A stretch of DNA of 64,000 nucleotides from an uncultured beta proteobacterium (GTDB taxonomy: Bacteria > Pseudomonadota > Gammaproteobacteria > Burkholderiales > Burkholderiaceae_E): NCBI GenBank assembly GCA_903934295.1, contig CAIZNI010000015.1, forward strand, positions 62,001 to 126,000, in the 5' to 3' direction. Below are positions 6,375-11,548 of the stretch, in pieces. How positions within the stretch are numbered: the stretch's first letter is position 1; the number at the start of each line of letters is the position of its first letter. A program made the position numbers and the translations under genes. Under the pieces are notes generated by a model, which was not told the origin of the DNA, made no database searches, and saw only the letters and a program-made list of their open reading frames with translations.

Positions 6375-7502
6375 TCAATCGTCGCGCAGACGTTCCTCGC
6401 CTCGCACCAGCCGTCGCGCGATCTCTTCATAAAAGCGCGCGTTGCGCACGTTCGCTTCGCCGTTGTCGCGGGTGCCGAGCAATTTGGCGGGCACGCCGCC
6501 GATGATCGAATTCTCGGGAAACACCTGGTTCTGCATCACGATCGCATGGCCGGCCACAATCGAGTTGGCCCCGATCTTCGCGCCGTCCATGATGGTGGCG
6601 TTGATGCCGATCAGGCACCGATCCCCGATCTCGCAACCGTGCAGCGTCACCCGATGCGTGATCGAGCAGTCCTCGCCAACAATGGTCGGTGTGTCGTTGC
6701 CCACATGCACCATCACGAAATCCTGAAGGTTGGTGCGCGCCCCGATGCGGATGTGATGCACCTCGCTGCGCATGACCACGTAGGGCCACACCGACGCGCC
6801 GGGTCCGATCCAGACCTTGCCATGCAGCTGTGCGGTGGGATGCAGCAGGGCCAGCCCATCGAGTGCCACTTGCGGACCCACCTGCGGCAGGCGCAGCACC
6901 GGCTGTGCCCGCACCCGCTCCCAGTGCCGGCGAACCTGGTCCAGCATCGCCTGCAAGTGGCTGTTGTTGTCGATCACCACATCGGCCAGCGCCATGCGCT
7001 CGGCATTCGAGAGCTGGGCATCCAGGCGCCCTTGCGCCGCCACACGGGCGATCCCGTCACGGGCCATGGCGCGCTCGATCGCCACCTCGCGGTCCACCAC
7101 ATTGACCCAGACCTCATTGCCCAGGTCCTGCCAGCCGGCCTCGAACAGAACAGCGGCCTCGAGCACGATGACCTGGCCCGGTCGTGATGCCCTGACGTCG
7201 GCCATTTCCTGCGCAGCCAGTCGGCGAATGGCCGGCCACACGATGTCGGTGAGTTTTCTCAGCTCGGTCGGTTGACCGAATACCGTCGCGCCCAGCGCCT
7301 TGCGGTCGATGCGCCCGTCGGCAGCCACCACCTCGGCGCCGAAGACCTCGGCAATCCGGGCGTGGGCAGGCGAACCGGGCTCATACACACGATGGCCGAG
7401 CAGGTCGGCGTCGATCACATGGGCGCCGAGTTCGCGAAGATGGGCGGCAGCGGTGGATTTCCCGCTGGCAAGGCCGCCGGTGAGGCAAATGACCAATGGC
7501 AT
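6375..7502 (-). CDS. coaE: fused dephospho-CoA kinase / gamma-carbonic anhydrase-like protein
   Basis: One uninterrupted 375-residue reading frame joins two complete domains. Residues 1 to about 200 are dephospho-CoA kinase, which phosphorylates the ribose 3'-OH of dephospho-CoA in the last step of CoA synthesis. It has the P-loop GGLASGKST, VIDADLLGHRVYEPG, a central VLEAAVLFEAG, and the lid ending ADVVIDN. Residues about 205-375 are a left-handed beta-helix protein of the gamma-carbonic anhydrase family. The three metal-ligand histidines are preserved (VMVHV, ITHRV, TLHGC), along with hexapeptide repeats and a C-terminal helix. Start 7502 fits the CoaE N-terminus; a 21-residue longer reading is Arg/Ala-rich and unlikely. 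In most betaproteobacteria coaE is a separate gene near pilD. Whether both halves are active, and what couples them, is unknown. Confidence 0.9.
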   Translation of the reverse strand: MPLVICLTGGLASGKSTAAAHLRELGAHVIDADLLGHRVYEPGSPAHARIAEVFGAEVVAADGRIDRKALGATVFGQPTELRKLTDIVWPAIRRLAAQEMADVRASRPGQVIVLEAAVLFEAGWQDLGNEVWVNVVDREVAIERAMARDGIARVAAQGRLDAQLSNAERMALADVVIDNNSHLQAMLDQVRRHWERVRAQPVLRLPQVGPQVALDGLALLHPTAQLHGKVWIGPGASVWPYVVMRSEVHHIRIGARTNLQDFVMVHVGNDTPTIVGEDCSITHRVTLHGCEIGDRCLIGINATIMDGAKIGANSIVAGHAIVMQNQVFPENSIIGGVPAKLLGTRDNGEANVRNARFYEEIARRLVRGEERLRDD

Positions 7503-7582
7503 GACAAGCCTGCGATGAGTGGAAGGGCGAGCAGCTGACCGGCGAGCGCCGGCACAAGCCGCCATGATAAGCAGTTGCCCGA

Positions 7583-8206
7583 TCAGCCGGGATCGCGCAT
7601 GCGCTGCGCCAGTTCGGCGTGCCCGCGCTCGTCGAGCACCTCGGCCGCCTGGAGCCGATCGCGCGCCTCCCGGTTCTGGCTGAGCTTGGATTTGCCCACC
7701 AGCGAGGTCAGGGTCACCTCGATGCCGACGATGTTGCGCAACATGCCGTCGATGTATTCCGGCGCCGAGTCGGTCATCTTCCAGGGCTTGGGCTCGGCGG
7801 CCTCGTGATGCCGTGTCAAGCGGGCCACCAGGCCGCGCACGAAGCGTTCGTCGTCATGCACAGTGATCGTGCCCTGCGCGTGGACCACCTCGTAGTTCCA
7901 GGTTGGCACCTGGCGGTGCGACTCGTGCTTGCTCGGGTACCAGTTGGGCGAGATGAAGGCCTCGGCGCCCCGGAACACCACCATCACCGGCGAACCGCTG
8001 GGGCATTGCTGCCACAACGGGTTGGCGCGCGCCACATGCGCCGTCAGGGTGCCCAACGGGCCGATGGCGGGATCGAGCTCGAACGGGATGTGGTCGGCAT
8101 CCAGGCCGTCGCCGCCCTGGCGCACCAGCATGCCCAGAGGGTGCTCGCGGATGATCCGGTGCAGGGCGGCAGGGTCGGACACGGCGAAATGGGCTGGGAT
8201 GTACAT
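7583..8206 (-). CDS. FMN-binding negative transcriptional regulator, PaiB family
   Basis: This 207-residue protein matches the PaiB family: MYIPAHFAVSD at the N-terminus, HPLGMLV near residue 22, an AFISPNWYPSKH segment near residue 86, and VPTWNYEVVHAQG near residue 101. The fold is a flavin-reductase-like split barrel that binds FMN or haem-like cofactors. In Bacillus subtilis PaiB acts with the acetyltransferase PaiA as a pleiotropic repressor, but the molecular function in proteobacteria is poorly defined. The ATG at 8206 begins the conserved N-terminus directly. It is separated from the coaE-fusion by 80 bases on the same strand and from its upstream neighbour by nearly 390 bases that contain two operator-like palindromes. 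Confidence 0.85.
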   Translation of the reverse strand: MYIPAHFAVSDPAALHRIIREHPLGMLVRQGGDGLDADHIPFELDPAIGPLGTLTAHVARANPLWQQCPSGSPVMVVFRGAEAFISPNWYPSKHESHRQVPTWNYEVVHAQGTITVHDDERFVRGLVARLTRHHEAAEPKPWKMTDSAPEYIDGMLRNIVGIEVTLTSLVGKSKLSQNREARDRLQAAEVLDERGHAELAQRMRDPG

Positions 8207-10017: not shown

Positions 10018-10134
10018 CTGGACGCCGACAAGTTCAAGCAGTTCACCGCGATGCTCGACGCACCTCCCGGCCCCAACCCCGGGCTTGAACGTCTCATGGC
10101 CGTCAAGGCACCCTGGAGCACCGGCGCGGCATGA
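10018..10134 (+). pseudogene. C-terminal remnant of a DUF1778 (TacA-like) antitoxin
   Basis: In the frame ending TGA at 10132-10134 the last 38 residues read LDADKFKQFTAMLDAP followed by PGPNPGLERLMAVKAPW. This is the toxin-neutralising tail typical of DUF1778 ribbon-helix-helix antitoxins. The in-frame sequence upstream reaches a stop at 9967 without ATG or GTG, and the RHH DNA-binding half is missing. The remnant overlaps the GNAT toxin start by the usual ATGA arrangement, so a normal antitoxin-toxin operon has lost its 5' part. Confidence 0.7.
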
Positions 10135-10625
10135 GCTTGCAACTGAGCGCACCGATTCCGCTCGCAGCCATCCACATCCTGGACGATTTCGCTTGCGGTG
10201 AAGCCAGTCTCGATGAATGGCTAAAGCGCCGGGCACTGACCAGCCAATTGAGCGGTGCCAGCCGCACCTTCATCGTCACGGATCAGGAAGGGCGCGTCTA
10301 CGGCTATTACGCGATGGCCGCAGGTGCGGTTTTACATCAGGCGGCAACCAGCCGCGTGCGACGCAACAGGCCCGATCCGGTGCCCGTGATGGTTCTGGCC
10401 CGGCTGGCCGTTGACCATCGTGCGCAAGGCATCAAACTTGGCGCATCCCTGCTGCAGGACGCGGTCGGTCGAGCGGTGAGCGTTTCGCGGAACGCCGGTG
10501 TCCGGGCGCTGCTCGTCCACGCCCTCCACGACCGCGCCAAGCGGTTCTACGAACGCTACGGTTTCCAGGAGTCACCGCAGCATCCAATGACGCTGACGCT
10601 GCGCTTGAACACCGTCAAGGCTTGA
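10131..10625 (+). CDS. GNAT acetyltransferase toxin (TacT-like)
   Basis: This 164-residue protein matches toxins that acetylate the amino group of charged tRNAs and block translation. It has the usual length, an early CGEASLDEWLKRRA segment, the acetyl-CoA-binding VDHRAQGIKLGASLL (about residues 99-113), and the C-terminal FYERYGFQESP whose Tyr is catalytic in TacT. Start ATG at 10131 overlaps the stop of the decapitated antitoxin. With the antitoxin DNA-binding part gone, the toxin may be unexpressed, tolerated through a cognate antitoxin elsewhere, or neutralised by the surviving tail if that is translated. The toxin frame itself shows no lesion. Confidence 0.85.
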   Translation: MSLQLSAPIPLAAIHILDDFACGEASLDEWLKRRALTSQLSGASRTFIVTDQEGRVYGYYAMAAGAVLHQAATSRVRRNRPDPVPVMVLARLAVDHRAQGIKLGASLLQDAVGRAVSVSRNAGVRALLVHALHDRAKRFYERYGFQESPQHPMTLTLRLNTVKA

Positions 10626-10923: not shown

Positions 10924-11292
10924 TCAGGCTTTTCGTTTCAGCCGCTCCACTTCGGCGTGGAAGGCCGGGGTCAGGTCCGCGATCAGGGATTCGATGTCGC
11001 GCACCTGATGTTGAACCGTCAGCACCGCGATGCCGTGCGGCACGAGGTCGTAGATCACGAAGTGCTGCCGCGCTGGAATCACCAGAAACGGCGCCGAACG
11101 GTACTGCCGCAAGCGGCCCTTCTCCGGGTTGGCGGCAGCAACGCCCATGACCGCGTACAGATCGGCGAGGTACTGGTCGGCAACGTCTTCGCCCCATTCA
11201 CGGCGCGACCGCGTGTGGATGCGGCGCAAATCCAGCGCCGCATTCCGGGTCAGCAGGAACGTGGCGGGGGATGGCACGTCATTTCCAGCCAT
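10924..11292 (-). CDS. parE: ParE/RelE superfamily toxin
   Basis: This 122-residue protein has the ParE-toxin core: FLLTRNAALDLRRIHTRSRREWGEDVADQYLADL near the N-terminus, then RLRQYRSAPFLVIPARQHFVIYDL and a final hydrophobic strand. ParE proteins usually poison DNA gyrase, RelE relatives cleave mRNA; sequence alone favours ParE. Its ATG overlaps the 3' end of the antitoxin gene by 14 bases, so the two are translationally coupled. The longer upstream reading in this frame lies inside the antitoxin gene and is rejected. Confidence 0.83.
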   Translation of the reverse strand: MAGNDVPSPATFLLTRNAALDLRRIHTRSRREWGEDVADQYLADLYAVMGVAAANPEKGRLRQYRSAPFLVIPARQHFVIYDLVPHGIAVLTVQHQVRDIESLIADLTPAFHAEVERLKRKA

Positions 11293-11548
11293 CGGCTTCC
11301 TTGCGGTCGAGCACCGCCATGTCGGCCTTGAAGTCGCCGCTGGACGCAAAGACGCGGCCTGCCGCCAAGTCTCGGTACCCGGCAAGGATGGCGTCCTGCA
11401 CAAACTGGCCGTCACGCCGTTCCATGTCGCGGCGGATCAGGTCGCGCACGTATTCGCTGGGCGTTTCGTAAAGACCCGCCTCGCCGACCATTCGATCCAC
11501 GAATTCAGCCAAGGGTTGCGACAGACGAGCGTTGATGCGTTCGGACAT
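11279..11548 (-). CDS. parD: ParD/CopG-type ribbon-helix-helix antitoxin
   Basis: This 89-residue protein has an N-terminal ribbon-helix-helix (SERINARLSQPLAEFVDRMV, then YETPSEYVRDLIRRDMERR) and a C-terminal toxin-binding tail. It neutralises the ParE-like toxin encoded immediately downstream and, as in the family, should repress its own operon. The start at 11548 is chosen because it begins the RHH strand; AGGCTCCC-like sequence lies upstream but no strong Shine-Dalgarno is seen. A multi-site palindrome of TGTCGCA half-sites lies about 50 bases upstream and is the likely operator. This is the only intact toxin-antitoxin pair in the patch. Confidence 0.83.
   Translation of the reverse strand: MSERINARLSQPLAEFVDRMVGEAGLYETPSEYVRDLIRRDMERRDGQFVQDAILAGYRDLAAGRVFASSGDFKADMAVLDRKEADGWK

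Follow-up and report, generated by a model that had tools for sequence, protein, structure and literature searches.

All organisms make CoA, and the kinase of its final step is generally regarded as well catalogued in bacteria. A stretch of DNA of 64,000 nucleotides (hereinafter designated the window) carries a single gene in which dephospho-CoA kinase (DPCK, CoaE) is joined to a γ-carbonic anhydrase (γ-CA)-like β-helix, raising the question of whether the joint is real, whether the kinase works and what the second domain contributes. We consider it probable, reading from the sequence, that the product is an active DPCK carried on a likely trimeric β-helix whose metal site is kept. The preliminary description of this locus named no described function for such a fusion, and we likewise found no description of a CoaE-γ-CA fusion in open-licence papers, going by their titles.

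Reality and spread of the fused frame

The preliminary description had read one uninterrupted frame encoding a complete CoaE and then a complete γ-CA-like β-helix with three metal-ligand histidines. Its frame, strand and coordinates are all correct (Table 1): the open reading frame runs unbroken from an ATG at 7502 to a stop codon at 6375-6377, and Pfam and the conserved residues agree with a complete copy of each domain. An upstream in-frame start at 7565, which would lengthen the frame, is probably a wrong start, because the fused relatives, as called here, begin M(T/P)xVICLTGG. The AlphaFold2 model of the full-length fusion has a mean pLDDT of 84.4, with high confidence in the kinase and values of 54-67 across β-helix residues ~251-320, and the β-helix domain modelled alone on its own alignment reaches a mean of 94.3.

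Table 1 Features of the fused gene and their positions in the window.
Feature	Residues	Position	Strand	Evidence
CoaE2-γ-CA fusion gene	375 aa	6375..7502	(-)	same architecture in L003-L006
Dephospho-CoA kinase domain, CoaE2 (COASY-like) group	1-198	6909..7502	(-)	PF01121, CoaE2 invariants, Foldseek
P-loop GGLASGKST	9-17	7452..7478	(-)	sequence; positions mostly invariant
IVWP motif	87-90	7233..7244	(-)	I, W, P invariant in CoaE2, common to mouse COASY
Linker	199-205 (~7 residues)	6888..6908	(-)	
γ-CA-type left-handed β-helix	206-375	6378..6887	(-)	Pfam, AlphaFold2, Foldseek
Metal-ligand position His266	266	6705..6707	(-)	
Metal-ligand position His283	283	6654..6656	(-)	
Metal-ligand position His288	288	6639..6641	(-)	

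A scan of genome contigs confirmed 210 relatives, and the best 80 of these 210 comprise 4 fusions, 48 kinases alone and 28 β-helices alone. The four fusions (designated L003, L004, L005 and L006) share the joint of the window protein and are 92%, 79%, 74% and 72% identical to it, respectively (for L006, in the best segment). The preliminary description had suggested searching for the two-domain architecture elsewhere, and had allowed that the joint might reflect a frameshift or an assembly error or that relatives might always encode two separate proteins; four more genomes prove to be fused, and a joint that is the same in five genomes bears neither defect. The architecture is conserved, yet most relatives among the best 80 loci carry the halves apart. 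Record titles show no fewer than three of the five carriers (L003, L005 and L006) to be metagenome assemblies, a circumstance that would suit an assembly or annotation artefact; the chance of one is nonetheless negligible, since independent copies have the same joint and include an isolate, Quisquiliibacterium transsilvanicum DSM 29781 (L004), whose fusion lies on a 665-kb contig, and assembly error is ruled out on these grounds. In L006 a Gly/Ala-rich insert falls exactly at the joint, which therefore behaves as expected of a linker. Comparison of the window gene with L003-L006 gives dN/dS values of 0.10-0.21 for the kinase and 0.03-0.11 for the γ-CA domain; both halves are therefore under purifying selection.

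The fusion is found within one family only, where it is carried by five of 74 genomes, the window's included: four of the ten genomes of the window's genus and one of another genus. Even samples of the class and the order, in which just the best few candidates per genome were scored, contain it in 1 of 369 genomes (the window's own) and in 2 of 399 (the window's own and G003), respectively.

A second CoaE group and the standard coaE

The kinase half matches the Pfam CoaE family (PF01121) at 165 bits against a cut-off of 27, over profile positions 2-178 of 180, and TIGR00152 at 151 bits against 65.55. Rather than to standard CoaE, it belongs to a second group, COASY-like and mostly stand-alone, for which we coined the name CoaE2. 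The window kinase has all 47 of the 47 residues that are invariant in 27 stand-alone CoaE2 proteins, and the CoaE2 profile scores full CoaE2 rows at 282-317 bits, one cut row at 251 and the rest at 229 or less. Its closest solved relative is mouse COASY (PDB 2f6r), which scores 164 bits with the window protein and is the best Foldseek match of the kinase model; against PDB chains, the profile of the 27 CoaE2 proteins gives mouse COASY 213 bits and all others 148 or less. In a quick kinase tree, 24 rows of standard CoaE, including those of the window's own genome and of E. coli, are split from all other rows with a support of 100. CoaE2 falls on the other side, together with mouse COASY, Aquifex CoaE and the second CoaE of two Chloroflexota genomes. 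CoaE2 and COASY are grouped at a support of 81 only, with a long COASY branch. This tree and the γ-CA tree below are both quick trees, with 18 of 76 and 15 of 47 forks starred, respectively, and with long-branch warnings. A published DPCK tree is called unresolved in the excerpted text of PMC6284149.

The records behind the CoaE2 rows bear the labels Pseudomonadota, Myxococcota and Chloroflexota, and three Chloroflexota-labelled CoaE2 (L062, L067 and L070) branch beside Pseudomonadota and Myxococcota rows. Three metagenome bins titled Bordetella parapertussis or Klebsiella pneumoniae (L009, L010 and L015) hold a CoaE2 that groups with Betaproteobacteria; their titles look wrong.

COASY resembles the window protein in having the IVWP motif and in combining a DPCK with a further domain. 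According to a passage of PMC6284149, the CoA-binding residues of the Entamoeba enzyme include W90. The partner in COASY, a phosphopantetheine adenylyltransferase, lies N-terminal to the kinase (same source, in excerpt), whereas the γ-CA-like domain of the window protein lies on the C side; Pfam matches no adenylyltransferase domain in the window protein, in which the kinase match begins near residue 4. The nearest published precedent that we found is mycobacterial CoaE (PDB 6n39), which in the excerpted text of PMC2765170 is a DPCK with an extra C-terminal domain in a protein of ~400 residues. That domain is UPF0157 (GrpB) rather than a β-helix, however, and the mycobacterial kinase scores lower than COASY, at 89 bits; UPF0157 has no Pfam match in the window protein, and PRK03333 gives 144 bits vs 215. 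Standard CoaE (E. coli 1t3h and the window genome's own copy) has the same PF01121 domain and presumably the same reaction, but falls on the other side of the tree split, is about 37% identical to the fused kinase (own copy) and sits at pilD-coaE-zapD.

DPCK is regarded as an essential enzyme; its essentiality in M. tuberculosis is stated in a passage of PMC2765170. A second, stand-alone coaE had been suggested as something to look for in the window's genome, and the PF01121 search finds one (203 bits, C20:248654), located between pilD and zapD as in genus-mates; the fusion therefore need not be essential there. At a threshold of E 1e-10, the same search was run for 36 of the 52 CoaE2 loci, in the genome of each, and CoaE2 is the sole CoaE found in 18 of these 36 genomes. 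Five of the 18 are single-contig chromosomes (L041, L047, L050, L069 and L080), the only ones in which the absence of coaE is firm; none of these five carries the fusion. Because CoaE2 is so often the sole CoaE found, we infer on genetic grounds that it works as a DPCK, strongly for the group and from one draft genome for the fusion. In that draft (G007; 93% complete, 80 contigs), no CoaE other than the fusion scores above the family cut-off, and a single 88-kb contig has pilD and zapD separated by ~160 bp that contain no coaE; here the fusion appears to replace the standard coaE, which is present alongside it in the other four of the five carriers. The pilD-zapD place is also empty in three genomes with a stand-alone CoaE2 (G439, G440 and G442; 87-201 bp between the matches), and coaE is kept next to pilD in G438 and G441. 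A second bacterial DPCK group whose nearest solved structure is mammalian COASY thus seems to have displaced standard coaE in several genomes, including one where the CoaE2 is fused to a β-helix with a metal site. CoaE2 versus coaE would be a natural gene replacement, and CoaE2 may offer a lead on where the COASY kinase domain came from.

Within flanks of at most 5 kb, some of them cut by contig ends, one or more of the following lie near CoaE2 in 36 of the 48 stand-alone loci: a PHP-domain gene, a MaoC-type pair, a ChsH2-type OB protein and a thiolase. A PHP-domain phosphoesterase gene is near CoaE2 in 33 of 48 loci, forming a kinase-phosphoesterase pair, and in 28 of 48 it lies 3' of CoaE2 on the same strand at a distance of 3-206 bp (for example L019, L027-L030, L033, L040, L041, L045 and L053); one example has a weak PDB match only, to 2anu. 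CoaE2 clusters with the MaoC-type pair in 24 of 48 loci, and in 17 of 48 its cluster has both a thiolase and a ChsH2-type OB protein (for example L015, L028, L031, L045, L053 and L059), arrangements that we take to resemble steroid side-chain degradation modules. A specialised kinase of acyl-CoA catabolism was rejected as the main reading of CoaE2, given that it is the sole CoaE found in 18 of 36 genomes. A search of the window's genus (10 genomes) at E 1e-10 with one joined query, which weak relatives could escape, listed no match to the PHP and MaoC partners.

The β-helix half and the origin of the joint

The second domain matches Hexapep (PF00132) at 52.6 bits against a cut-off of 27, and its closest Foldseek matches are γ-CAs, among them the A. 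baumannii enzyme (8gpm/8gpp). It has the fold and the three metal histidines of the γ-CA family (1v3w, YrdA 3tio, PaaY 8gpp): His266, His283 and His288, together with the R and Q-D positions, all of which we take to be the positions of Cam, are kept in the window protein and throughout its group (hereinafter designated γ-CA2; 43 of 43 rows, from 36 distinct loci, 7 rows being repeats). It differs from that family in its fusion to a kinase, in falling below the curated cut-offs and in one motif, with the R-G-D of classical γ-CAs reading R-S-E in the window protein and R-(S/A/C)-E in the group; the third position is E in all 43 group rows and also in 6 of 17 other rows. The cut-offs of the NCBIfam models for γ-CA (NF050158; 100.2 bits vs 250), PaaY (97.2 vs 319.6) and CaiE (82.8 vs 305) are not reached, and the γ-CA and PaaY models score the domain about equally. 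The fused β-helix is 54-80% identical to stand-alone γ-CA2 proteins and descends from that group. One stand-alone relative (L162, 70% identical) lies on a plasmid typed as conjugative, NZ_CP054603.1; a plasmid search at E 1e-30 matched 48 records, 40 of them from Pseudosulfitobacter.

The fusion would have arisen, most simply once, when a CoaE2 gene became fused in frame with the beginning of a γ-CA-like gene that members of the window's genus also carry alone. The last codon of the linker (CTG in the window, TTG in L003 and ATG in L004-L006) is probably the former start codon of that γ-CA gene. The five fused β-helices form one clade in the quick tree (SH-aLRT 95), and the rows nearest to them are unfused β-helices from two genus-mates (L007 and L008; support 87, not starred), at whose loci no kinase match is found. 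On the kinase side, a single origin is weakly supported: one clade of the five fused kinases is not rejected (p-AU 0.615), and they form one group in a smaller careful tree (74/92) and are split in the free quick tree. Neither half is found at E 1e-40 in four genus-mates (G001, G004, G005 and G009; 72-90% complete). Across genomes there is no strong link between CoaE2 and γ-CA2, as a γ-CA match (E 1e-38, 50-60% identity) occurs in 7 of 32 genomes with a stand-alone CoaE2, and CoaE2 at E 1e-38 in 0 of 28 genomes reached through γ-CA2 alone.

The carrier from another genus (G512, genus g15; the genome of L003) shares 92% identity with the window's genome in the fusion, but 59-67% in pilD, standard CoaE and ZapD. 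Gene transfer between genera could account for this fusion. Alternatively, its contig may be misbinned, because it is short (5.2 kb) and its glutathione-transferase neighbour best matches G008 of the window's genus (63%), compared with 55-57% for the closest g15 genomes.

Possible roles of the fused protein

Present beside standard coaE in four carriers and, it appears, in its place in one, the fusion would be an active dephospho-CoA kinase that uses ATP and dephospho-CoA to make CoA. The β-helix, with its intact metal site, most likely trimerises and would thereby give a scaffold shared by three kinase domains; the folding or solubility of the kinase may also benefit from it, much as mycobacterial CoaE benefits from its unrelated C-terminal domain. 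We infer the kinase turnover and the trimer, as well as any catalysis by the β-helix.

What the β-helix adds can be read in several ways. It is possible, although we lean against it, that the domain is an active CO2/bicarbonate enzyme feeding CoA-ester carboxylases, so that the fusion ties CoA supply to bicarbonate supply. The retained histidines, R and Q-D and the nearness of the fold to γ-CAs, including 8gpm/8gpp, fit such an activity, as does a fused biotin-dependent acyl-CoA-carboxylase-type gene that in L004 and L005 lies downstream of the fusion, either immediately or with one transporter gene in between (genes at related loci were called with a simple purpose-made scorer). This neighbour is found at two of the five fusion loci only, however, with none beside the window gene or that of L006 and with a contig in L003 too short to show one, and both R-S-E in place of R-G-D and the low γ-CA model score point away from a classical enzyme. 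A chance of the same modest order goes to the β-helix serving only as a scaffold for oligomers and to keep the kinase folded or soluble, with no part for its chemistry in the fusion. M. tuberculosis CoaE needs its C-terminal UPF0157 for a soluble, active kinase (PMC2765170, in excerpt), but the β-helix keeps its metal site in full and has a lower dN/dS than the kinase half, and the 48 stand-alone CoaE2 loci among the best 80 of 210 do without one.

It is doubtful that the domain is a CoA-thioester enzyme like PaaY or CaiE, in which case one protein would both make CoA and free it from acyl esters. The PaaY and CaiE models score near the γ-CA model, yet far under their own cut-offs. On the Pseudosulfitobacter plasmid NZ_CP054603.1 an enoyl-CoA hydratase-related gene precedes the stand-alone β-helix relative, an order that we take to resemble caiD-caiE, and an acyl-CoA-ligase-like frame lies less than ~5 kb from stand-alone γ-CA2 in 7 of 28 loci, five of them from Rhodobiaceae or close kin; the two of these 7 frames checked by Pfam are AMP-binding. 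PaaY is both a thioesterase and a γ-CA in the excerpted text of PMC467105, which cites primary work. Among directly adjoining genes, however, inspected by eye at 21 of the 28 loci, stand-alone γ-CA2 has no common partner outside Rhodobiaceae and no common thioester gene, nor does the Tistrella plasmid provide one, and the four plasmid proteins annotated as PaaY among 30 of 143 records listed are 31.5-35.4% identical, compared with 69-70% for the Pseudosulfitobacter copies. Identity of γ-CA2 with PaaY or CaiE is thus not established, the neighbours being hints only. Separate action of the halves, with a translation restart at the old start codon releasing the γ-CA domain, is improbable: the codon at the joint is still ATG in three carriers, but the ATG is lost in the window and L003, and no clear ribosome-binding site is seen by eye. 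We also see little probability in a more ambitious reading, a two-reaction CoA enzyme whose trimeric metal β-helix would sense or convert bicarbonate or acyl-CoA and thereby adjust CoA formation at its final step to carboxylation or thioester load, having displaced the standard kinase in some family members. An active DPCK on a trimeric β-helix remains our preferred reading, and the fusion offers a defined protein for asking what roles γ-CA-like domains have besides CO2 hydration.

In the window, a gene for an FMN_bind_2 (PaiB-type) protein (7583-8206) lies 80 bp upstream of the fusion on the same strand, and the two possibly form one transcript; none of the genes called beside the other fusions is an FMN_bind_2 gene. 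Farther along, the window encodes a GNAT acetyltransferase (10131-10625), which we liken to TacT and which may be a toxin of that kind, and a ParE-type toxin (10924-11415).
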